This document shows, piece after piece, positions 10,107 through 52,827 of a DNA stretch of 64,000 nt. Position numbers and translations under genes: made by a program. Positions within the stretch are counted from its first letter, which is position 1. Each line of letters opens with the position of its first letter. This stretch comes from Sphaerochaetaceae bacterium (GTDB lineage Bacteria > Spirochaetota > Spirochaetia > Sphaerochaetales > Sphaerochaetaceae): assembly GCA_028532915.1 (NCBI GenBank), contig JAQQAI010000070.1:1-64000 (forward strand), written 5' to 3'. The notes under the pieces are model-generated. The model ran no database searches. It had not been told where the DNA came from and saw only the letters and a list, made by a program, of their open reading frames with translations.

Positions 10107-10201
10107 TAGATTATTTGATTGTTTAAATTACAGTTTACCGATAGAATTCCTAAATGTAGCGCTGATTTCATAATGCAGAGTTTCAAAGAAGGATAATTTT
10201 G

Positions 10202-12040
10202 ATGAATAGTAATGTCCGAAGAGTTTCACGACGCCTGATGTATGCTCCAATTGATGTATTACTGATTTATTTCGGATTGATACTGACTCAGTTTACCACG
10301 CGTATTACGCTGGCGCAGTTATGTGATTCTCCGTTCGCCTTTCCGGTAATCGCGGCTTCCTATGTTCTGTTTCTTTTTATCTTCAAGGTCTATTTCATCC
10401 GGATCGTGGACAGTTCGCTCGAACTCGTCATCCGCGGTTTTTTCGCACTTCTGTTCGCATCTGTTGTGAATATCATCTTCCTTCTGATAAAAACACAGGA
10501 TTTTTCTCTGGTCTTCAGACACCAGATTCCTTTTACCTTTTCGATAGCTCTTATGCTTCTCGGCTATCGGGTCGCATACCGCATCGCGGTCTCCTATCAC
10601 CCGACTCCCAAGATCATTGCTTCGGCCCATCCTAAAGCGGTCATCTACGGGGCCGGAGAGATAGGGATGCAGCTGGTCAGGCAGCATTACAAGAACAAGC
10701 TGTCGCTGCTGATCGTCGGATTCATCGATGATAATCCGATCAAAAAATCGTCGATGATCAACGGAGTGAATGTCCTTGGGTCCCTTGAGACACTTCCCGA
10801 TATCCTTCGATCCAGTGATATTCAGGTACTCGTTATTGCTATCACGAATCTTTCGGGCGACAGAATGAAACTTGCATTGGAAACTGCTGAGCGCTTCGGG
10901 GTCGAAGTGAAGATCATCCCGTCCCTTTTCGAGATAGAGAGCAATAAAAAAGGTGTCACCGATCTTCGTTCTCTGAACATCGAGGATCTGATCGGAAGAC
11001 GGCAGGTGAGCCTGGACAGAGAACCGATCAAAAATATGGTTGAGGGCAAACGGGTTCTTGTCACCGGGGCAGGCGGCTCGATAGGGAGCGAAATCTGCAA
11101 ACAGCTGCTGGAATATGAACCGAAATCACTTCTTCTCGTCGACATCGACGAGACCGAGCTTCATGACCTCTCGCTGCGTCTTCACGGTTATTCGGGAGAG
11201 TTCAGCGATACCATCCTGCCGGTCGTCTGTGATGTGAGAGACAGGGGAAAAGTGAACAGACTTTTCGAAAAGCATAAGCCGGAACTAGTCTTCCATGCTG
11301 CAGCCTACAAGCATGTTCCTATGATGGAGTACTATCCCGAAGAGGCTGCAAGAACAAACATCATGGGAACCTATAACGTGTTTGAGGCTGCTGTTACCCA
11401 CGGAAGCTACCGGTGTATACTCATCTCCACCGATAAGGCTGTGAATCCCACGAACGTCATGGGCGCCACAAAGAGAGTAGCCGAACAGATTGCCCGGATG
11501 CTCAGCTGCGCGGGCACGGAAATCATCTGTGTCCGTTTCGGGAACGTACTGGGATCCAGAGGTTCGATGCTCCCGTTGTTTTTGGAGCAGATGAACAACG
11601 GTCATCCCATCACGGTCACAGATAAGAATATCATCCGCTATTTCATGACTATTCCCGAAGCGGTTTCTCTTGTATTCCAGGCCGGAGCTCTCGGCAAAGG
11701 AGGAGAGGTCCTTGTTCTGGAGATGGGAGATCCTGTGAATATCTATGAATTTGCCAGGAGGCTTGTCAAATATTTCGGTGATGGAAGAAGCGAGGTTGTC
11801 ATCACAGGTCTCCGTCCCGGAGAAAAGCTGTATGAAGAGAAACTCAGTGATCTCGATAAGACGATGCCTACCGATAACCCCAAAGTATACCGGGCAAAAG
11901 TGAACGGGACGATTGATCATGCGACATTCAAGGCGTTCTATGACGAGATTCCTTCACTATCTCCTGAACAGATCATTGAAAGGGTGAAGAATTTTGTCCC
12001 GGAATATACACGTAACGGGCAGAAAATCATAGGGAAATAG
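10202..12040 (+). CDS. Membrane nucleotide-sugar 4,6-dehydratase (FlaA1/CapD/PglF family)
   Basis: A 612-residue polysaccharide-biosynthesis protein. Four membrane helices fill about residues 13-130. A CoA-binding-like Rossmann domain follows ('AVIYGAGEIGMQL' near 150). The SDR domain begins near 280 ('GKRVLVTGAGGSIGSEI', NAD binding). The catalytic region reads 'STDKAVNPTNVMGATKR' near 405, with Met in place of the SDR tyrosine as in UDP-HexNAc 4,6-dehydratases. It would convert UDP-GlcNAc to a 4-keto-6-deoxy sugar at the inner membrane. The ATG at 10202 is preferred over the TTG just before it because AGAAGGA gives good spacing. The next gene, a NusG paralogue, begins at the base after the stop. 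No glycosyltransferases follow. Confidence 0.93.
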   Translation: MNSNVRRVSRRLMYAPIDVLLIYFGLILTQFTTRITLAQLCDSPFAFPVIAASYVLFLFIFKVYFIRIVDSSLELVIRGFFALLFASVVNIIFLLIKTQDFSLVFRHQIPFTFSIALMLLGYRVAYRIAVSYHPTPKIIASAHPKAVIYGAGEIGMQLVRQHYKNKLSLLIVGFIDDNPIKKSSMINGVNVLGSLETLPDILRSSDIQVLVIAITNLSGDRMKLALETAERFGVEVKIIPSLFEIESNKKGVTDLRSLNIEDLIGRRQVSLDREPIKNMVEGKRVLVTGAGGSIGSEICKQLLEYEPKSLLLVDIDETELHDLSLRLHGYSGEFSDTILPVVCDVRDRGKVNRLFEKHKPELVFHAAAYKHVPMMEYYPEEAARTNIMGTYNVFEAAVTHGSYRCILISTDKAVNPTNVMGATKRVAEQIARMLSCAGTEIICVRFGNVLGSRGSMLPLFLEQMNNGHPITVTDKNIIRYFMTIPEAVSLVFQAGALGKGGEVLVLEMGDPVNIYEFARRLVKYFGDGRSEVVITGLRPGEKLYEEKLSDLDKTMPTDNPKVYRAKVNGTIDHATFKAFYDEIPSLSPEQIIERVKNFVPEYTRNGQKIIGK

Positions 12041-12568
12041 ATGAAAAGTTACTGTCTCTACTGCAAGACCGGATCAGAGAAAAAGCTTGCCTATCTTATC
12101 AAAAAGAGTGTGGAAGATGTGCTCAATGAGGACATCCAGATCATGTATCCGGTGAGAATCATGAACCAGAAGAAACAGGGGAAATGGAAGAAGGTAGAAC
12201 AGCCTCTGATTCCCGGGTACATGTTTCTCTATCTCGAAGATGATATCCCCTTTCCTCTCTTCCTCATTAAAAACGAAAGAAATGCGTATAAGATTCTGAG
12301 GAATAATGATTACACTCTCGCCCTCAAAGGGAGTGACGAAGACTATGCGAGGTGGGTCTATAATCATCAGGGGACCATCAGGCCGAGCAAAGTCCTGTTC
12401 AAGGAGGGGAAATTGGTCAGGGTTATCGACGGTCCTCTATGTGATCTTAACGGGAAAATCGTAAAAGTTGACAGACACCACAAAAGAGTTCACGTCATGT
12501 TCCAGTTCGGAGGAAAAGAGAGGATCATCAATCTCTCCATCGAGGACATCGAGATGGATTCACAATAG
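12041..12568 (+). CDS. NusG-family processive antiterminator paralogue (LoaP/RfaH-like)
   Basis: A 175-residue protein with an N-terminal NGN domain ('MKSYCLYCKTGSEKKLAYLI', 'PLIPGYMFLYLED' near residue 60) and a C-terminal KOW domain ('GKLVRVIDGPLCDLNGKI' near 122, 'VHVMFQFGG'). Specialised NusG paralogues of this kind load onto RNA polymerase at polysaccharide operons and prevent termination. Start and stop codons abut the upstream dehydratase gene (TAG then ATG), so the two are translationally coupled. The expected polysaccharide operon does not follow; a minus-strand gene begins 10 nt downstream. It may therefore act on a locus elsewhere. It is distinct from housekeeping NusG, which usually sits with secE and rplK. 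Confidence 0.85.
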   Translation: MKSYCLYCKTGSEKKLAYLIKKSVEDVLNEDIQIMYPVRIMNQKKQGKWKKVEQPLIPGYMFLYLEDDIPFPLFLIKNERNAYKILRNNDYTLALKGSDEDYARWVYNHQGTIRPSKVLFKEGKLVRVIDGPLCDLNGKIVKVDRHHKRVHVMFQFGGKERIINLSIEDIEMDSQ

Positions 12569-12577
12569 ATTGAAGTT

Positions 12578-13513
12578 CTATTGAGTATGCTTTGCAATCA
12601 GGGCATAGAGCTGAACTCTCGTCGAGACCTGCAGCTTTTCGTAGATATGCTTTATGTGTGTCTTCACGGTATTGTGTGAAATATAGAGATGCTCTCCGAT
12701 TTCAAATGAAGTTTCACCTCTCACAAGAAGATAGAGAACTTCCTTCTCTCTGGCTGAGATTCCTTTTTCCATCATGAATTTTTCATCGATGATACCTTCG
12801 TGTACAGGGTGTTCATACTGCTGGAAGTATCTTCTTGAAATGAAAAAATAGAGGTATACAACGAAGATCGAATAGCTCAGATATGCGACCTTGAATGTCT
12901 GGTCTCTGAAAAAGATGAGATCGATGGGGAATGTGAACAGCAACGGCAGAAATGTCGCACTTATTCCCGATAGAAGACTTTCCTGCTCCCAGCCTCTGGC
13001 GTTTCTTTTATAATACAGTGCTGCAATTCCGAGTGCGCTCATAAGCGAACTGGCAGCAAAAAAATGGTAGGAGAAGGTGATATGCATCACTTTTGATGGT
13101 TCAAAGTTCCCGGCCGCCAGGATAGAAACGGTGCTCGCGGTGAAAAACAGCATGATGATGCCTCTCATGATCTTCATGGCGATAGAGGTCTGCCGTTTCG
13201 TTGTCGGAAGCAGCAGAATCAGATAGCGGGCCAGTGTATAGACGACAGCGGTTGTAAGTGCCACGGATGAAAACGATGCCCACCACGCATATAGCGTGTA
13301 ATTAGGACTACCCCCGGTGAAATTCGGTGAAACAGTGTCCACATAGGAGACAAACTGTGTCAACAGCATCTGAAACGAAAGAGGGACGAGAACAGAGAGA
13401 AATTCGAGAGAATACCCGTCCTTCGCCCGTATATACGTGAGGACACACAACGCCATTATCGATAATACGAGACTGGTTGTGAGAAACAGTAACACATCTC
13501 CTACTACAGACAT
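12578..13513 (-). CDS. Membrane-anchored LuxR-type transcriptional regulator
   Basis: A 311-residue protein with about seven hydrophobic helices in residues 1-235 and a LuxR/GerE helix-turn-helix at the C-terminus ('ISAREKEVLYLLVRGETS', then 'HNTVKTHIKHIYEKL'). The membrane part probably senses a lipophilic ligand or envelope state; no receiver domain is present. The start is ATG 13513, preceded by GGAG at good spacing, rather than the GTG at 13516. It is the last gene of the minus-strand run from 18644 and lies 59 nt after the DUF2147-like gene, so it may regulate that exporter operon. It is convergent with the NusG paralogue. Ligand and targets are unknown. Confidence 0.82.
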   Translation of the reverse strand: MSVVGDVLLFLTTSLVLSIMALCVLTYIRAKDGYSLEFLSVLVPLSFQMLLTQFVSYVDTVSPNFTGGSPNYTLYAWWASFSSVALTTAVVYTLARYLILLLPTTKRQTSIAMKIMRGIIMLFFTASTVSILAAGNFEPSKVMHITFSYHFFAASSLMSALGIAALYYKRNARGWEQESLLSGISATFLPLLFTFPIDLIFFRDQTFKVAYLSYSIFVVYLYFFISRRYFQQYEHPVHEGIIDEKFMMEKGISAREKEVLYLLVRGETSFEIGEHLYISHNTVKTHIKHIYEKLQVSTRVQLYALIAKHTQ

Positions 13514-13572
13514 CACAGAGGCTCCTTACCCCGATTGTATCATACAGGAAACGAATCAGATAGAGAGCAGTG

Positions 13573-14082
13573 TCAAAGAGTGTAGGGTACGAAAGAGTCC
13601 AGTCTAGGTATTCTGACAAAAGGCGGAAAATCTTTTTCTACAGCTTTGCAGAAACGGTATTTCATACCGAACGGTCCCAGCATCCCGCGCAGTATGAGAT
13701 CACCGGATTCTCTCCATATCTGTGCACCGTAGATGTTGCCGTTTTTCACATCCACGACTTTCCCGCCCGTGTATCGCGACCCGTTTTTCTTCAATCCGAA
13801 AAAGAGATCGATCTCAACAAGAAAATGCCTTTTGTTCCCAATACTGATCGATGATACGGGCGATTGATAACTTTCAATGTATGTACCGTCCTCTTCGTCG
13901 AAGGCAACTATGATTCTTCCGTACACCATTTGATCATAGGTATACACAGCGATGATGCTGGTGGTGAAACCCTGCTTGGAATCGACACTCTTGTAGTATC
14001 CATCAGGCGACGCAGCCGTAAGAACAGACAGTGTCATCATCAATGCAGTGCAGATACCCCACGCTGCCGATCTTGTTATCAT
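13573..14082 (-). CDS. DUF2147-like secreted protein
   Basis: A 169-residue exported protein: signal peptide of about 23 residues ('TALMMTLSVLTAAS'), then a single beta-rich domain resembling DUF2147 ('DGYYKSVDSKQGFTTSIIAV', 'MVYGRIIVAFD', 'YTGGKVVDVKNGNIYGAQIW', 'ILRGMLGPFG'). The run 'GG.V.D..NG..Y' is the most family-like part. The domain's role is unknown; relatives are periplasmic. It sits 11 nt after the outer-membrane gene and ends 59 nt before the LuxR gene, inside the RND/LolA/barrel operon, so a periplasmic accessory role in that export system is a reasonable inference. Confidence 0.7.
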   Translation of the reverse strand: MITRSAAWGICTALMMTLSVLTAASPDGYYKSVDSKQGFTTSIIAVYTYDQMVYGRIIVAFDEEDGTYIESYQSPVSSISIGNKRHFLVEIDLFFGLKKNGSRYTGGKVVDVKNGNIYGAQIWRESGDLILRGMLGPFGMKYRFCKAVEKDFPPFVRIPRLDSFVPYTL

Positions 14083-14093
14083 ATCCCGGATCC

Positions 14094-15416
14094 TCAGAAA
14101 AGGTAGGAGATCGACAGATATAGCCTGTCGTTCTTGTCCCAGTAGGCGTAAGAGGAACTGATTTCGCTGTCAAATGATCCGATAAGTTCCATCCCCGCTG
14201 TCACACCAATCTCATCGGTCGCAAAATAGGTGATTTCGGTGAGAAAAGCATAGCCGGTCGTAGGAAACTGATAGGTAAAAGCACCTTCGAATCGCAGTTG
14301 TTCGTTCAGCATGGAAAGAAGGAATGCCAACGTCAGATTATGATCGGTTTCCACATAGGTCATCGTGTCCACATCCATCACCTCTGTATTGTCATAACCC
14401 AGTATATGGCTGCCGTAATATCCTGCAGTGATGGAACTTGAAGAATTTTTGAAAAGATACATCAGTGATGCTCCGTAGGCGAATCTGGAGTTATACAATG
14501 TCTCGTCGGTGCCGTCAGCATCTTCACTGAGAAAGAAAGCTCCTTCTGCCGCGACTGTCATGGGTCCGACAACATATCGTGCATCGGCACCGAATGTGTT
14601 GAACCGTGTATAGATCGTTTCGATCGAATCTACAACCGCTCTCGGATCGGGACTAACAGGCGCAGAGAGTGAATAAACATAACCTCCCTGATAATCATAT
14701 CCGTGATGAAAGAACAGGTGAGTTTCAAGGTTCATTGAAGAAAGTGCGAGCCGCACTGCGTAACTGGCGTAAGAGAATGTCGAGGTATTCTCTTTGATCA
14801 TCTGCGTGTCATCGGTGATAACGAAGCTCTCCTGGTCGGCCTCGATCGTCCATCGGCTGTTCTCGTTTCCCGTCCATGTCGGATGGAATACAGGTTTGTA
14901 AATGAGTTGAAGTGAACTTGTATCGAAGAACCACTGAGCTATACCCATCATTTCAGGAAGTTTCATCTTCCTCGTATCCATCGACAGTCCATCTGAAAGA
15001 TCAACAGCATTTATGATGTCGGTGACACGGTATGTATCTGTGACTCCCCACTGCTGAACCATATATCCTGCTTTGAAGTTTCCCCGCGGAAAGAACCATG
15101 TGAGCGATAGATTCTGAAGAATATCAGAGATTACAAAATCTTCTGATAAATCCGACCCGAGACTGAAATCGACATTACCCGCAAAATCTGATGAAGTGAA
15201 CTCAAGTCCTCCTTCGAGAGCTGCATTCGGTTCGATCAGATTATCATAGCCGGGAAGATAGGAAAAATGAGAAGAAATAGAACCTGAGAACTCAACAGCC
15301 TGTTCAGTACTGTCAAGATCACCGAATATCTGTGTGAATCCTTCGGCCGGATATACCGGCATCATCAGAAGCACTATCAGGACAGTGATCATAATTGGGT
15401 ATCTGCTATTCATCAT
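14094..15416 (-). CDS. Outer-membrane beta-barrel protein (DUF1302-like position)
   Basis: A 440-residue protein with a signal peptide (residues 1-25) and a long mature region of alternating beta-strands rich in aromatics and acidic residues. It ends 'DRLYLSISYLF', whose final Phe is a classic outer-membrane barrel C-terminus. 'FFPRGNFKAGYMVQQWGVTD' near residue 115 resembles the region of DUF1302 and related porin-like proteins that travel with RND exporters and LolA-like proteins. The start codon overlaps the stop of the upstream LolA-like gene (ATGATGA). It is likely the outer-membrane partner of the operon. Assignment to DUF1302 is tentative. Confidence 0.68.
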   Translation of the reverse strand: MMNSRYPIMITVLIVLLMMPVYPAEGFTQIFGDLDSTEQAVEFSGSISSHFSYLPGYDNLIEPNAALEGGLEFTSSDFAGNVDFSLGSDLSEDFVISDILQNLSLTWFFPRGNFKAGYMVQQWGVTDTYRVTDIINAVDLSDGLSMDTRKMKLPEMMGIAQWFFDTSSLQLIYKPVFHPTWTGNENSRWTIEADQESFVITDDTQMIKENTSTFSYASYAVRLALSSMNLETHLFFHHGYDYQGGYVYSLSAPVSPDPRAVVDSIETIYTRFNTFGADARYVVGPMTVAAEGAFFLSEDADGTDETLYNSRFAYGASLMYLFKNSSSSITAGYYGSHILGYDNTEVMDVDTMTYVETDHNLTLAFLLSMLNEQLRFEGAFTYQFPTTGYAFLTEITYFATDEIGVTAGMELIGSFDSEISSSYAYWDKNDRLYLSISYLF

Positions 15417-16189
15417 ATCCTCCCTGTTTTGAGGAACTGAAGCGAGAAATAGGAAGATGGGATGGGTATATCATACTTGGCCTGCACGATCGTAATTACG
15501 CTTCTATGACCGGTAGATATCGTTCTCATCTCCATTTTCGTGGCGACCCATGATCCGTCTATAAGATCCTTTTCCAAAATGATCAGTTCCTTTATCATTG
15601 TCGTTCCCTTTTCATCGAACAGCTGGACCTTCGACGGGAGGAAACTCTCTTTGTCGACATATGTGATTGTTCTGCCGTAGACGGCATCTGATTCATACGG
15701 GACCGATTCTATGATATAAATCTCACCGGTTTCCCCGATGACGGTATGGGCTGCCTCATCAGAATCGAAGGTAGTACTGTCCATATCTTCGTAGGAGAAA
15801 TCACTTCCCATGAAAGAGGCCCCTCTTTCTGCACTTCCGATCTTCCTCGATTGTTTCAGTGCAGGTAGATAGATCCACTGCTCCTTGTAGTTTTCCTTTT
15901 CAATTGACAGGAATCTGGTCTGCCTCACACTCGCAGGGGAGAGAAATATCGTGATGCTCTCGTTATTCTGCTCAGAGCTTCTGTTCAGAGTCTGTATCCT
16001 CCGTGTCCTGACTTCCCCGTTCTCACCGATGAGTTCCAATGAGATATCAAGAGCACTGCTGTCATGTTTTTGGGTATTTTCCACCTTCTCCATAATCTGG
16101 GCAGCTGTCATCGCACTTATCGTTTGCGTCACGGCAAGCACGACATATATAACAGCTGCTACCATTTTCAGTCTATGTTTTTTGATCAT
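15413..16189 (-). CDS. LolA-like outer-membrane lipoprotein-sorting protein
   Basis: A 258-residue periplasmic protein with a signal peptide ending near 'TISAM'. It matches the LolA-like family found beside RND exporters: 'YKEQWIYLPALKQSRKIG' near residue 105 and 'FMGSDFSYEDM' near 125 are hallmark blocks. LolA-fold proteins carry a lipid or lipoprotein in a half-barrel across the periplasm. The gene overlaps the RND gene by 17 nt at its start and the barrel gene by 4 nt at its end, indicating tight translational coupling. A role as periplasmic lipid carrier between the RND pump and the barrel is inferred from context. Confidence 0.82.
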   Translation of the reverse strand: MIKKHRLKMVAAVIYVVLAVTQTISAMTAAQIMEKVENTQKHDSSALDISLELIGENGEVRTRRIQTLNRSSEQNNESITIFLSPASVRQTRFLSIEKENYKEQWIYLPALKQSRKIGSAERGASFMGSDFSYEDMDSTTFDSDEAAHTVIGETGEIYIIESVPYESDAVYGRTITYVDKESFLPSKVQLFDEKGTTMIKELIILEKDLIDGSWVATKMEMRTISTGHRSVITIVQAKYDIPIPSSYFSLQFLKTGRI

Positions 16190-18644
16190 AACTTTCCTCC
16201 ATCATAACTAATGTGACCGGTAATATGATCAGTGCCGCACAACCGGCAAAGATCATAGAAATACAGAAGAGTATCCCCATCTGTCTTATGGGAATGAATC
16301 TTGAAAAGATGAGAGCGGCGAAACCTATGGTCACAGAAAGTACATTTATGATGATCGCCTTTCCCGTAGTCTTCATAATCACTGCAATCGGTGTCTCTGA
16401 GGTGGACAATCCTTTCAGACGCTGATATGCGAATATATAGTGGATTGAATAGTCGACTCCTATCCCGATCGCCAGAGCAGCGAGCAAAGATGTTACAATA
16501 TCGAGGCGGATAGAGAGAACAGCCATCGATGAGAATATTCCCGCCAGTGCGAAGACCACGGGAATGAGGCCGGCAAGCGCATAGCGAAGTGACCTGAACA
16601 GAAACAGCAGTATAAGAAAGACGACAACAAGAGAAATTACAAGAGAGTAGATCTGGCTTTTCGTTACCAGATTTGTAAGTTCAAGACTGATTGCCTCCCC
16701 TCCGCCTACGGCAACATCTATGTTGGGATTTCTTCCATCATCCCAGTAGGAGGTGATAAAATCTTTCAGTTTCCCGAGTGAGTCTGAAGAACTGTCATTG
16801 ACGATGATGGTTATATTCGCAGCATCTGGTTCGATTGTATCGTTTATGAAATAGGAAAGGTTGCCTGAATAGAGGATGAGATATTGACTTATAAGATCTG
16901 ATAGGTCCTGCCGAGTCTCCAGAAAGTATTTCTTCGGGTCTGAAGGGATCTCATCGAATGAGTAGTCAATCTGTGACCTGTCATACTCTTTTTTCTCAGC
17001 GGTGTTCGCTGAAGGGAGCTTTTCTGTTTCGAACGAAAACGAATCGCTGAAAAAATCGATTTCCGATGCTGTCTGCTGTTCTTCTTCGCTGCGGTTCTGA
17101 TTCATGAGCAGATTCATTCTCTTTATGTAGGGAATGATCGACTGGACAGATCCTACAGTATCAAATCCCGTCAGCTTTTGAGAGAAGGTCTGCAGTGATA
17201 ACAGAAAGGATGGAGTGAGAATAGATGAGTCGTCCTCTGTCGAGAACATCACATTGATGATGCCGCTTCCTCCCATCTTATCACTGTAGATTTCGGTATC
17301 TTTCACGACTCTGTTATCTTCGGTGAAAAAGTCGATCATATTTGTCCCTTTTTTGATATGGGGAACAAGAGCTATCGTCACAGCACAGATCACAACAGAG
17401 AGAATCACAACTGTTTTTGTGTGATGCATTGCCCTCTGAACGACCAGAGTGCTTTTAAACGTTCTTTCATCGTTTCGTTTCTTATGACTTCTCCATCTTT
17501 CTCTTTTATCCTCTCTTATTCCGTTGATGCTTGTCAGGCGGATAAGCGATGGTAAAAGGAAAAGAGATCCGAGCTGGGAGATAAGAATGCCGAAAGCACT
17601 GAGAAGCCCGAACATCCTGAAAGGTCGAAGAGGTGAGGCCAGTTGTGCGAGAAAACCTGCCGCAGTAGTCATTCCCGCCAGTATTATCGGCTTTCTGTTC
17701 TTTCTGATGACCGAAGCGAGTGTAGAGTCGACCGATTCATAGGTTACCGGCGCGGGAAGCTGTTCGATCTCTTCATAGAAATGACTCATCACATGGATTG
17801 CATAGGCGCTCGAAACGATCAGAAGTAGGACGGGAACAAGCATCGTTGCCATGGTGAACGTGATTGAAAAGTGAACCATGATTCCTATGACGACAGATGA
17901 GCTGACAAGCAGCGGGACAAAAGAAAGAAGAATGCCGGCAGGTCTTTTTAGCGAAAAGGTAAGTACGAAGAAGATGAGAATGGCTGCGATGGGCGCGAGG
18001 AACGTCAGATCATTCACCAGAGATGTGTTGATCTCGCGTTTGATCACAGGCAATCCTACCAGTGAGAGAATGCTGCTTTCATCGGTGTATCGGGTGACGA
18101 TCGTGTCCAGTTTTCCTATGAGCTGTTGCTGCTGCTGTTCAGTAAGTCCCGTTTTCATGGAGATGACGATCGACGAGAAGGTGAGATCCTTTGAGATCAG
18201 AGAGTTATGGTACACCTCTTTCCAGCTTTCAATCTGATCGGCCATGTGCCGGATCTGATCTTCTTGAGTTCCTGTAAACAGGGGCTGTGCCTCCAATCCG
18301 AGAGAATCGACACCGAGGTGGGTGAGGCTGGTGATGCTTCGTACACTTTCTACTTCAGGCAGTTGTCTGATCATGTTTGTGAGGTCGTCGATAAGAGTCA
18401 GAGTCTGCTTATGAAGAATGCCGTCTTGTTCATTATGAACGGAAAGCAGCAGTGAATCGAGGGAACCGAATTCAAGTTCTATCTTATCATTTACTGCAAC
18501 AACCTGTGAATCCTGCGGAATGAAGACATCGGTAGAGCTGTCGATCTTCAGCTCATCAATCAATGAGAGAGAGTATATCGACATCATCAGAAAAATGAGG
18601 GTGATGATGATATCTATGCAGATTTTTTTCCGTTTTGTTTTCAT
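16173..18644 (-). CDS. RND/MMPL-family exporter with sterol-sensing-like domains
   Basis: An 823-residue inner-membrane protein with the MMPL/HpnN architecture: a first helix near residue 15, a periplasmic loop to about 205, a five-to-six helix bundle (about 210-375, 'APIAAILIFFVLTFSL', 'LLIVSSAYAIHVMSHFYEE'), a helix near 415, a second loop to about 655 and a second bundle to about 815 ('GIGVDYSIHYIFAYQRL', 'GFAALIFSRFIPIRQMGILF'). The G-x-D-Y motif in bundle two fits proton-driven lipid transport. Relatives move hopanoids, glycolipids or other lipophiles. It is first in an operon with LolA-like, barrel, DUF2147-like and LuxR genes. The start is ATG 18644; the GTG at 18647 is also possible. 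Confidence 0.9.
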   Translation of the reverse strand: MKTKRKKICIDIIITLIFLMMSIYSLSLIDELKIDSSTDVFIPQDSQVVAVNDKIELEFGSLDSLLLSVHNEQDGILHKQTLTLIDDLTNMIRQLPEVESVRSITSLTHLGVDSLGLEAQPLFTGTQEDQIRHMADQIESWKEVYHNSLISKDLTFSSIVISMKTGLTEQQQQQLIGKLDTIVTRYTDESSILSLVGLPVIKREINTSLVNDLTFLAPIAAILIFFVLTFSLKRPAGILLSFVPLLVSSSVVIGIMVHFSITFTMATMLVPVLLLIVSSAYAIHVMSHFYEEIEQLPAPVTYESVDSTLASVIRKNRKPIILAGMTTAAGFLAQLASPLRPFRMFGLLSAFGILISQLGSLFLLPSLIRLTSINGIREDKRERWRSHKKRNDERTFKSTLVVQRAMHHTKTVVILSVVICAVTIALVPHIKKGTNMIDFFTEDNRVVKDTEIYSDKMGGSGIINVMFSTEDDSSILTPSFLLSLQTFSQKLTGFDTVGSVQSIIPYIKRMNLLMNQNRSEEEQQTASEIDFFSDSFSFETEKLPSANTAEKKEYDRSQIDYSFDEIPSDPKKYFLETRQDLSDLISQYLILYSGNLSYFINDTIEPDAANITIIVNDSSSDSLGKLKDFITSYWDDGRNPNIDVAVGGGEAISLELTNLVTKSQIYSLVISLVVVFLILLFLFRSLRYALAGLIPVVFALAGIFSSMAVLSIRLDIVTSLLAALAIGIGVDYSIHYIFAYQRLKGLSTSETPIAVIMKTTGKAIIINVLSVTIGFAALIFSRFIPIRQMGILFCISMIFAGCAALIILPVTLVMMEESYDQKT

Positions 18645-18777
18645 CACCTCAACTATACTGAGAGAACATGCGCCGACCTATCGGGAAACAGGATGATATT
18701 GCTCATCATTTCGGGTGATTGACTCCTCTGTGAACCTTCTCTTTTATATGTTACTATTTGCACTAAGGAGAAAAATT

Positions 18778-19266: not shown

Positions 19267-20442
19267 ATGTTGAATTTCACATTTTACAATCCGACTCGGA
19301 TCATCTTCGGAAAAGGAACCATAGATCAGGTGGGAAGCCAGTGTAAACGGTTCTCCACCAGGGTTCTCCTTCATTACGGTGGAGGGTCCATTAAAAAGAA
19401 CGGGGTGTACGATGAAGTTGTCTCCTCTCTGAATAAAGAGGGTATCGAGTTTGTAGAACTTTCCGGTGTTGTTCCCAATCCCCGGTTGTCTAAAGTCCTG
19501 GAGGGGATAGAGATTGTCCGAAGAGAGAATATCTCTTTCATTCTTGCAGTAGGCGGAGGATCGGTGATCGACTCTGCGAAGGCTATCGCGTTCGGTTCTC
19601 TTGCAGACGGTGAGCATTTGTGGGAAGACTATTTCATGAACCCGGAAAATTCAATAAAGAAAGCACTTCCTGTAGGCGTTGTTCTCACCATTCCCGCCTC
19701 AGGCTCAGAAAGTTCGACTAGTCTGGTGATAACAGATGAGAGAAGCAATCTGAAACGGGCGATTAAAAGTGAACAGGTGATTCCGCAGTTCGCTATTATG
19801 GATCCTGAGACGAACTACTCGCTTCCTGATTATCAGACAGCCTGCGGTGCTGCTGATATTCTCGCTCATCTGATGGAGCGGTACTTTACCAATGAATTGC
19901 ATAACGATCTTTCCGATGAACTTCTGGAAGGTGCGATGAGAAATGTTCTCGCACATGCACCTCTTGCTTTGAAACACCCTGCCGATTACAAGTACAGAAG
20001 TGAACTGATGTGGACAGGGACTCTTGCCCATAATGATCTGTTTGATCGGGGGAGGGTAGCCGACTGGGCATCTCATGCGATTGAACATGAACTCTCAGGA
20101 GCTTACGATATTGCTCACGGAGCAGGATTGTCGATCATATTCCCTGCATGGATGAGATATGTATACAAGCGGAACATAGACAGATTCGTTCAGTTTGCTA
20201 TCAGGGTATGCAGTGTTAATCTGTCTCTTGATGATAAAGATGCCGTCGTTGAATCGGCAATCGACCGGCTTGAACTTTTTTATAGATCACTGGGATTACC
20301 GGTGAGGCTGACTGATGCCGGGATTGGTACTGAAAAGATCGATCTTATGAGTAAGAATGCCATGATAAACAAAGAGACGATCGGTAATTTCGTTAAACTT
20401 ACGGAGGATGATGTCAGAAAGATACTTCGTCTTGCACTCTGA
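19267..20442 (+). CDS. Iron-containing alcohol dehydrogenase (butanol dehydrogenase type)
   Basis: A 391-residue group III metal-dependent alcohol dehydrogenase of the BdhA/YqhD branch, which reduces aldehydes to alcohols with NAD(P)H in fermentation or detoxification. The nucleotide-binding loop 'AVGGGSVIDSAKAIA' lies near residue 98. 'PASGSESSTSLVI' near 146 and the metal ligands in 'CGAADILAHLMERYF' (Asp, His near 198) and 'HAIEHELSGAYDIAHGAGL' (two His near 265-280) are present. The ribosome-binding site is GAAGGAGGTC. It overlaps no gene; its stop codon is directly adjacent to the stop of the convergent HD-GYP gene. Cofactor choice cannot be fixed by eye. Confidence 0.93.
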   Translation: MLNFTFYNPTRIIFGKGTIDQVGSQCKRFSTRVLLHYGGGSIKKNGVYDEVVSSLNKEGIEFVELSGVVPNPRLSKVLEGIEIVRRENISFILAVGGGSVIDSAKAIAFGSLADGEHLWEDYFMNPENSIKKALPVGVVLTIPASGSESSTSLVITDERSNLKRAIKSEQVIPQFAIMDPETNYSLPDYQTACGAADILAHLMERYFTNELHNDLSDELLEGAMRNVLAHAPLALKHPADYKYRSELMWTGTLAHNDLFDRGRVADWASHAIEHELSGAYDIAHGAGLSIIFPAWMRYVYKRNIDRFVQFAIRVCSVNLSLDDKDAVVESAIDRLELFYRSLGLPVRLTDAGIGTEKIDLMSKNAMINKETIGNFVKLTEDDVRKILRLAL

Positions 20443-50508: not shown

Positions 50509-52827
50509 TTATTTCTTCCCGGGAAGCAGTTTCCAATGAAGCGTCTCTGTCACCAGAATCACAGGAGGCAGGATGAACAGTGTGGCAAGCATCGTATTGA
50601 GAAGCGAAATGGAAACGAGGATCCCGAAATAGCGGATCGGAGTGTAGGAGCCGAAACTCAGCATCGATATTCCCAGAACGATCGCTGCCGTCGTAAGGAG
50701 AATCGGTCGACTCGTCTCATGAATCGTCTCTCTCAGGCGGAGGCGCACATTGTGATACTTGTTGATGACTACTTTGTTCTTGTATCTGATGAGAAAGTGG
50801 ATGGCGTCATCGATACCGACACCGATGGTAACACTGCTGAAACCGATGGTGATGATATCGAACGGGATACCGGTGAAGAACATGAAGATATAATTAACCA
50901 TGATTCCGACAACGATCGGGATTATGCTGTAGATACCGAACTTGAAAGACCTGAAAGAGATCGTTGACAGAAGGAAGACCAAAACGAATGAGATAAGAGT
51001 CGCTTTGTTCTGATCACTTGTGATAGTGTCGCTGAACAGTATCGCATCGGTGCCGTCTCCCCATGCATGAGGTTCAGCTCCCTGAGGCAGAAGATCAAGA
51101 TTCTCTTCGATGAGTTCCTGAATACGGACCGCGCTGGCGACTGTCTGGAAATCCTGATCCTGAGCATCCCATACTTTGAGAATGATCGTCATCTCGGTGG
51201 CATCATCATTGATGAGCATCCTTATCTGATCACTAGCCTGGTCATCCTGTGTGAGCAGCCTCATGAATCTCGACAGCAGATTGATCAGCCCCTTGGACTG
51301 AGGGATCTCGGATTTGCCGGAATAGACTTTGTTCATGAACGACACATACTCGGAATAGCTGAGAATATGGGATACATCGTCGGAGCTGTCAAGCAGAGTC
51401 TGCTCGAAGATGTGGATCTGTTCGAGTACCTCGGGGTCAAGAAAGTAGTTCTCTTCTCCCTCGGGCGCCGTCAGTGTCACATAATGGTTATGAACACCCT
51501 GGAATTCTTTGACGATCCTCATCGAATCGACGATGAGAGGTTCTTTTCGGGGGAAGTAGGTCATGTAGTTTGTCTGCAGTCCGACATGATCTTTCGTGAG
51601 AAAGAAGCCCAGAACGATCAATACACTCAGTGCGATAAAGGTTCTCCACCGTTTCATGACAATACGTGAACTGCTTCTGCTGATATGGGCGATGATCCCC
51701 TGTGTGTACTGCATCATATGCTGCTTTCTCGGAGCGATCGTGATAGTCAGGACCGCCGGAAGATAGGTAACAGAGAGAAGTGCACAGAAAGTGATACCTA
51801 TTGAAACAGAGACTCCGAACTGCTTGAAGGCATCAGTGCGGGCGCTGAGAAGACTGAGAAAGCCTATGATATCGGTGATACATGCGAGGATGATGGTTCT
51901 GCCGATCTTCGAGACGGCTTTATAGATATAATTTTCATTGCCCTCATGGTAACTTTGGAAATATTCGGTAAGGACGTGAATACTGTAGGATGAGCCGATC
52001 GTGAGAACAAGAACCGGGGTGACGATGTTCACGACCGTCAGTTTGAAACCGAGAAGAGCCATCGCCCCGAAGGTCCACACTATTCCGATGACCGAGAGAG
52101 TGAAGGGGATGACCGATGCCCTCTTGGCTTTGAACGACAGGTAGTAAACGGCCAGAATGACGAGGAAACTCAAAGAAAGTAGAGTAATCAGATCCTTTGA
52201 CAGGTAGCCCATGATCCGCTTTGAAGTCGGAAGGTCTCCTGAAACAGAAACTGTCGCCGACTGTTCGACATCAAAGAAGATCGCCGAGAAATCATCGAGC
52301 ATTTCCAGATCGTCAGGATCGGCCTGGAACTGGAAGATGAACGATGTGTAGGTCTTTGAGACAAGAAGTCCCTTCACGATATCATCATTTCTCACTTTCT
52401 GTTCAAAACTGTCCACGGTCTGTTCATCCCAGACTATCTCGCCGCTGTTTGCAAGCATCGGAACGCTGACAAGTCTTGTTCCCCGTTTCTCGATGGTCGT
52501 GAAATCGAAGATAGAAGTTACCGACCCTACACTCGGATGGTCCTTCATCTCTTCGACGGCCGTGTACAACGAACTCAAGAAGTCGGGGTCGAACAGATCG
52601 TCTGTGGTCACCATCACGGTGAACTGGGAACTGAATCTGGTGTTCTCGGAACTCGTGATGTCATACTTGCCTCCCGAAGGGGGGATCATATCACTGTAAT
52701 TTGCACTGAATTCGAGCTTCAGAATCGCTAATGCCCCGAATAATAATGTTATCAGGACCACCAGAGCTACCGTCAGGCGGGGTGAAGATTGAACTTTCTT
52801 GATAAGCTTGTCGATTGATGAATACAT
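50509..52827 (-). CDS. RND/MMPL-family exporter, second copy
   Basis: A 772-residue inner-membrane protein with the same two-bundle layout as the protein at 16173-18644: helix near residue 25 ('LVVLITLLFGALAIL'), periplasmic loop to about 205, six helices with 'LVLTIGSSYSIHVLTEYF' near 275, helix near 395, a second loop and a second bundle with 'GVGIDDAIHFLIRYKN' near 685. The G-x-D-D motif in bundle two replaces G-x-D-Y of the other copy. It probably exports a lipophilic compound. No LolA-like or barrel gene is adjacent; the secreted 49424 gene follows. An AATAGGAGTATC site precedes the ATG. Confidence 0.9.
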   Translation of the reverse strand: MYSSIDKLIKKVQSSPRLTVALVVLITLLFGALAILKLEFSANYSDMIPPSGGKYDITSSENTRFSSQFTVMVTTDDLFDPDFLSSLYTAVEEMKDHPSVGSVTSIFDFTTIEKRGTRLVSVPMLANSGEIVWDEQTVDSFEQKVRNDDIVKGLLVSKTYTSFIFQFQADPDDLEMLDDFSAIFFDVEQSATVSVSGDLPTSKRIMGYLSKDLITLLSLSFLVILAVYYLSFKAKRASVIPFTLSVIGIVWTFGAMALLGFKLTVVNIVTPVLVLTIGSSYSIHVLTEYFQSYHEGNENYIYKAVSKIGRTIILACITDIIGFLSLLSARTDAFKQFGVSVSIGITFCALLSVTYLPAVLTITIAPRKQHMMQYTQGIIAHISRSSSRIVMKRWRTFIALSVLIVLGFFLTKDHVGLQTNYMTYFPRKEPLIVDSMRIVKEFQGVHNHYVTLTAPEGEENYFLDPEVLEQIHIFEQTLLDSSDDVSHILSYSEYVSFMNKVYSGKSEIPQSKGLINLLSRFMRLLTQDDQASDQIRMLINDDATEMTIILKVWDAQDQDFQTVASAVRIQELIEENLDLLPQGAEPHAWGDGTDAILFSDTITSDQNKATLISFVLVFLLSTISFRSFKFGIYSIIPIVVGIMVNYIFMFFTGIPFDIITIGFSSVTIGVGIDDAIHFLIRYKNKVVINKYHNVRLRLRETIHETSRPILLTTAAIVLGISMLSFGSYTPIRYFGILVSISLLNTMLATLFILPPVILVTETLHWKLLPGKK

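Follow-up and report, generated by a model that had tools for sequence, protein, structure and literature searches.

An operon of five minus-strand genes in the 64,000-nucleotide stretch of DNA analysed here (the window) probably encodes a trans-envelope transporter for hydrophobic molecules and, to control it, a dedicated one-component regulator in the membrane. The source assembly comprises 2.64 Mb in 96 contigs, and its named nearest relatives are for the most part Sphaerochaetaceae. An earlier note on this DNA had described five touching or overlapping genes for an RND pump, a LolA-like carrier, an outer-membrane barrel, a DUF2147 protein and a membrane-embedded LuxR regulator, and had read them as a lipid or lipophile export route with its own sensor. 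The open reading frames are present as described (see the table), and the assigned functions and the operon are borne out by profile matches, structure models and close spacing. The RND and LolA-like genes overlap by 17 bp and the LolA-like and barrel genes by 4 bp; 11 nt separate the barrel gene from the DUF2147 gene and 56 nt the latter from the LuxR gene. A trans-envelope route for lipophilic molecules with its own sensor is supported at the level of sequence comparison.

Genes of the operon and the operator-like repeat upstream of it, with their positions in the window
Feature	Position	Strand	Remarks
HAE3/MMPL-type RND inner-membrane transporter	16173..18647	-	824 aa; start GTG 18647 or ATG 18644
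LolA-like periplasmic carrier (PF17131)	15413..16189	-	258 aa, signal sequence
Outer-membrane beta-barrel, DUF1302-related	14094..15416	-	440 aa, signal sequence, C-terminal Phe
DUF2147 periplasmic protein	13573..14082	-	169 aa, signal sequence; accessory
Membrane one-component regulator, seven TM helices and LuxR/GerE HTH	12578..13516	-	312 aa
Operator-like inverted repeat TCACCCGAAATGATGA	18703..18718	-	about 55 bp before the RND start

The first gene encodes a protein that matches the MMPL family PF03176 in two stretches (4.5e-34, 118 bits, cut-off 20.5). Its match to the NCBI HAE3 model TIGR00921 (2e-73, 247.7 bits) lies below the curated cut-off of 351.9, and judged by this score the protein is HAE3-related, not a formal member of that family. 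Residues D732 and Y733 are invariant among 18 relatives. The pump is of the same RND branch as HpnN and the mycobacterial MmpL proteins and has distant sequence matches to 5khn and to MmpL4/5; the partner proteins are different there. Identity with the hopanoid exporter HpnN was rejected since the score against the HpnN model is far under the cut-off (97.7 bits versus 751.85). A second HAE3/MMPL-like RND gene is located in the window at 50509-52827 on the minus strand (772 aa), has neither a LolA-like gene nor a barrel gene adjoining it, and groups on the RND tree with two pumps that likewise lack LolA (L120, L178).

The periplasmic carrier matches the Pfam family LolA_like (PF17131) over domain positions 2-183 of 184 (6.5e-51), and its solved relatives in the PDB are 9tp6 (2.3e-31), 3bk5 and 4z48. 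The protein encoded by the third gene has no significant Pfam match, and none to the DUF1302 profile in particular; 7 of 29 aligned relatives do match DUF1302 (best 2.2e-14), and by way of these relatives it is a distant kin of DUF1302. An AlphaFold model computed with the 29 relatives is nearly all-beta (pLDDT 87.5, pTM 0.82). Its best Foldseek matches in the PDB are porins of the OmpF/OmpC type (best E 2e-12), with TM scores of 0.43-0.48 and a large rmsd. The N-terminus is hydrophobic and the last residue is Phe, as is typical of outer-membrane barrels. The barrel that the earlier note had proposed for this gene is thus modelled with confidence.

The DUF2147 assignment is based on a Pfam match of 6.2e-11. 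In all nine distinct loci where a DUF2147 gene was found it lies between the barrel and LuxR genes, and most cassettes of the LuxR clade lack it; by this distribution it is an add-on in a subset of the clade. A PDB search returned no solved relative of DUF2147, and the literature yielded nothing useful on what DUF2147 does or on the outer-membrane glycolipids of Sphaerochaeta.

The LuxR protein carries a GerE match (4.2e-16) with the HTH at residues 253-305. In the AlphaFold model from 37 rows (pLDDT 89.3, pTM 0.82), residues 2-235 form seven long helices and the HTH follows at the C-terminus. The N-terminal domain has no match in Pfam, known sensor domains included, and a comparison of its fold with the PDB gave nothing below E 0.001; loose alignments to 7-TM/GPCR-like proteins at E of about 0.05 were not interpreted. 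Membership in a defence system was dismissed, as the PADLOC match was limited to the HTH stretch. The architecture is common in Spirochaetia: nine of ten more distant relatives sampled from this class have seven hydrophobic segments (the tenth has eight), and the class has many 7-TM LuxR proteins with a length of about 300 aa (L174-L182, L262-L271).

Neighbourhoods were compared in three sets: a search of 61 genomes of relatives, a LuxR search of 395 Spirochaetia genomes, and 78 named loci collected with the RND profile. The complete five-gene order is present in G001, G007 and G034, and also in G019, where LolA was placed by a separate PF17131 search. G353 fits this order, its LolA frame being masked by an overlapping ORF, and two loci cut by contig ends (G003, G077) are consistent with it. 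Many Sphaerochaeta-type genomes contain RND-LolA-barrel-LuxR without DUF2147. In the named set, which was chosen on RND alone, there are 64 distinct LolA genes after an RND gene; a barrel gene comes next in 55 of these and the contig ends in 7. The named triad loci belong to Spirochaetota, Bacteroidota, Chlorobiota, Ignavibacteriota, Caldifarciminota (WOR-3), Halanaerobiales, Fusobacteriales and Fibrobacterota. Counts from the class-level set are descriptive only, because its regions were selected partly for the presence of LolA. Judged by these neighbourhoods the RND-LolA-barrel core is not specific to spirochaetes. The synteny check across Spirochaetota that the earlier note had proposed showed that the genes are not scattered and that their order is kept across genera, which rules out that they are chance neighbours.

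A TetR gene lies upstream of most RND-LolA-barrel cassettes (all four examples scanned matched PF00440; the other TetR labels come from an HMM built in this analysis). In one RND clade LuxR replaces TetR: on a tree of 116 rows, all 28 LuxR-linked pumps fall into a single 39-row clade with support of 100 and zero TetR, and one change suffices to explain the two linkages. Both kinds of cassette can be present in one genome, as in G001 (L110 with TetR, L063 with LuxR) and G007 (L112 and L066, respectively); further cases exist. Among the 395 Spirochaetia genomes, all 27 of the closest LuxR relatives (at least 329 bits) are located at an RND-LolA-barrel cassette, and none of the next nine matches (190-249 bits) is. 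By these scores and locations the cassette branch is distinct from its sister branch, which precedes SDR/epimerase-type genes. Six polar residues do not vary among the 26 cassette-linked rows: D7, D33, Q49, Y58, D199 and K209. The sister branch largely has the last two as well.

The LuxR-linked cassettes have a conserved inverted repeat, TCACC-N6-GGTGA, upstream of the RND gene. A count of inverted repeats found it in 22 of 26 non-redundant upstream regions, compared to at most 2 for any dyad in shuffled sets. With up to one mismatch and within 300 bp of the RND gene, it is present in 37 of 38 LuxR-clade cassettes (32 exact), in 1 of 72 other RND cassettes and in 5 of 760 shuffled sequences. 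The copy in the window has one mismatch. Altogether, six one-mismatch matches were seen in the window where about two are expected, which is unremarkable alone; the weight of the upstream site comes from its conserved position, not from this count. Across whole genomes, the consensus TCACCYNNNNRGGTGA occurs 1-6 times where an exact cassette site is present, compared to 0-2 occurrences of the reversed control, and in G278 the single site in 3.6 Mb is the operon's own. As many as 4 consensus sites were counted in some genomes that lack the LuxR cassette, so part of the genome-wide sites are background. Weaker copies approximately 23-25 and 46-47 bp downstream of the main site exceed all 200 shuffled sets, which suggests an operator array.

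The motif also accompanies the regulator outside the cassette. Just downstream of the sister LuxR genes it is found with up to one mismatch in four of nine cases, three of them exact, and the genes next to it are unrelated to the cassette; at three of these four loci the next gene encodes an SDR-type enzyme according to Pfam (the fourth, L177, was left out of the scan). Because it occurs at sister LuxR loci and is nearly absent from other RND cassettes, the motif tracks the LuxR type and not the pump, and it is probably the LuxR operator. It might instead be bound by another regulator, with the 7-TM LuxR acting elsewhere and the transport function unchanged. The operator role of LuxR is read from sequence, and at L195 and L224 near-sites are present although no LuxR gene adjoins them; the occurrence of the motif with the same LuxR type at unrelated genes and its near-absence from TetR and other RND cassettes make this alternative quite improbable. 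One cassette, L158, has LuxR and lacks the site within 300 bp. TetR cassettes do not share this motif; in 11 of 48 of them a different palindrome, AGTTA-N4-TAACT, lies upstream of the RND gene and is probably the TetR operator (e.g., L075-L082, L103-L122, L212-L260). The strongly conserved putative LuxR operator is an addition to the earlier note, whose proposal of a membrane-embedded LuxR as the system's own sensor is strengthened by the multi-TM model and by this apparently dedicated predicted site.

Carriers of the PF17131 family also occur with a different motor. The source genome has two further PF17131 genes, each located after FtsX-type ABC permeases and before a barrel gene of its own, and relatives show the gene order LolD-FtsX-FtsX-LolA-barrel. 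Such LolCDE-like ABC operons (LolD, two FtsX permeases) with their own PF17131 carrier and barrel are present in the same spirochaetes (L083 (G000:C81), L084 (G000:C54), L085, L087, L088, L090-L097, L101) and are possibly the ABC-driven counterpart of the RND route. On unrooted FastTree trees of LolA (113 rows) and of the barrel (119 rows), one change each explains linkage to RND or to ABC. Because of this single change on both trees, carrier and barrel seem to stay together as a constant unit, whereas the motor in the inner membrane can apparently be swapped.

The LolA fold and the FtsX-type neighbours of the two other carriers would also fit a Lol-like sorting system in which the LolA-like protein takes lipoproteins to the outer membrane or the surface, all the more as classical LolA (PF03548) has no profile match anywhere in the source genome. 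We consider this highly improbable for the RND operon. A PF17131 gene is absent from 16 of 37 searched family members (genomes of 1.2-2.4 Mb), which argues that the system is accessory and disfavours essential lipoprotein sorting, and the operon lacks a LolB-like gene. In addition, we know of no RND pump that serves as a Lol motor.

Related groups of RND, LolA-like and DUF1302 proteins, which the earlier note had mentioned for proteobacteria, are indeed described. Deletion of AmeABCD in Castellaniella defragrans leads to lower monoterpene tolerance and to more Nile Red accumulation (PMC6394551), and betaproteobacterial COG1033/PF07044/DUF1302/COG4447 operons have a proposed role in aromatic and solvent stress (PMC6449761). 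As in the spirochaete cassette, a pump of the HAE3-type RND group is encoded in these operons with a periplasmic member of the LolA superfamily and an outer-membrane protein of the DUF1302 family. In contrast to AmeABCD, where AmeB is a DUF1329 protein, the cassette has a PF17131 carrier and an only distantly DUF1302-like barrel; the COG4447 partner AmeC is not among its five ORFs, and DUF2147 and 7-TM LuxR genes are present. Growth of Pseudomonas putida on Tween 20 depends on PP_0765 (DUF1302), PP_0766 (DUF1329) and PP_2018 as well as on the transporter PP_2019, and AlphaFold contacts were reported for this set (PMC10866462). It includes a DUF1302 barrel, a DUF1329 carrier and an inner-membrane transporter with a linked phenotype, but its genes are split over two loci, its carrier is of another family, and it has neither LuxR nor DUF2147. 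Together, the three systems point by analogy to hydrophobic small molecules or lipids as substrates. Further counterparts are the TetR-RND-PF17131-barrel cassettes that this analysis found in Bacteroidota, Spirochaetota, Halanaerobiales and other groups, with homologous RND, LolA-like and barrel genes in the same order; they differ in having TetR and AGTTA-N4-TAACT instead of the 7-TM LuxR and TCACC-N6-GGTGA. Since proteobacterial relatives such as AmeABCD are known, the cassette is a variant and not a new kind; what is new beyond this known core is the motor exchange, the 7-TM LuxR regulator and its putative operator. For the regulator, the Eggerthella lenta proteins DadR, HcdR and CadR, membrane LuxR activators of neighbouring catechol dehydroxylase genes (PMC9734109), have a similar membrane-embedded N-terminus, C-terminal LuxR HTH and location beside the genes they activate, but 10-12 TM helices instead of seven and metabolic enzymes as targets.

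From these comparisons we infer the substrate class, the hand-over steps, the outward direction, activation as opposed to repression, and binding of the operator by LuxR; substrate and direction are taken over from the distant relatives. Powered by protons, the HAE3-type pump would extract a lipophile or lipid from the inner membrane; the LolA-like carrier would receive this molecule in the periplasm and pass it to or through the DUF1302-type barrel, with DUF2147 as an accessory periplasmic protein. Within the membrane, the 7-TM LuxR would sense molecules of this kind and control the operon by binding TCACC-N6-GGTGA sites before the RND gene, most likely as an activator, the likelier mode because the E. 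lenta membrane LuxR proteins are activators (PMC9734109). Transport could also be inward or two-way, with barrel and carrier bringing in lipids or lipophiles from outside, the RND protein receiving them and LuxR sensing the incoming molecule. The Tween 20 requirement in P. putida could reflect such an uptake (PMC10866462), but RND pumps of this branch with a tested function export, as does AmeABCD in the case of Nile Red (PMC6394551), and we regard anything other than export as rather unlikely.

More tentatively, and with slightly less than an even chance, the spirochaete 7-TM LuxR family may consist of lipophile sensors of which the cassette branch binds TCACC-N6-GGTGA arrays and controls a carrier-barrel lipid route that can be driven by RND or ABC motors interchangeably. 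To our knowledge, the passage of hydrophobic molecules across the spirochaete envelope is poorly known. The present analysis ties one type of carrier-barrel pair to two kinds of motor. It also provides a regulator, an exact DNA site and individual residues, all of which are open to direct tests. Through the LuxR protein of the cassette, a large family of 7-TM membrane receptors in spirochaetes that is still uncharacterised becomes accessible as well.

A scan for sigma-70 promoters and terminators gave matches no commoner than in shuffled sequences. On the plus strand, a gene with NusG and KOW domains (12041-12568) is convergent with the operon and ends 9 bp from the LuxR stop; it is directly preceded by a CapD-like polysaccharide gene (10199-12040) and probably encodes a specialised antiterminator of the polysaccharide locus. 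At the other end, an HbpS-like gene (PF03928, 18715-19242) and an alcohol-dehydrogenase-like gene (19267-20442), both on the plus strand, point away from the operon and have the upstream region in common with it. In G001 (L063), genes of comparable size are located at this position.
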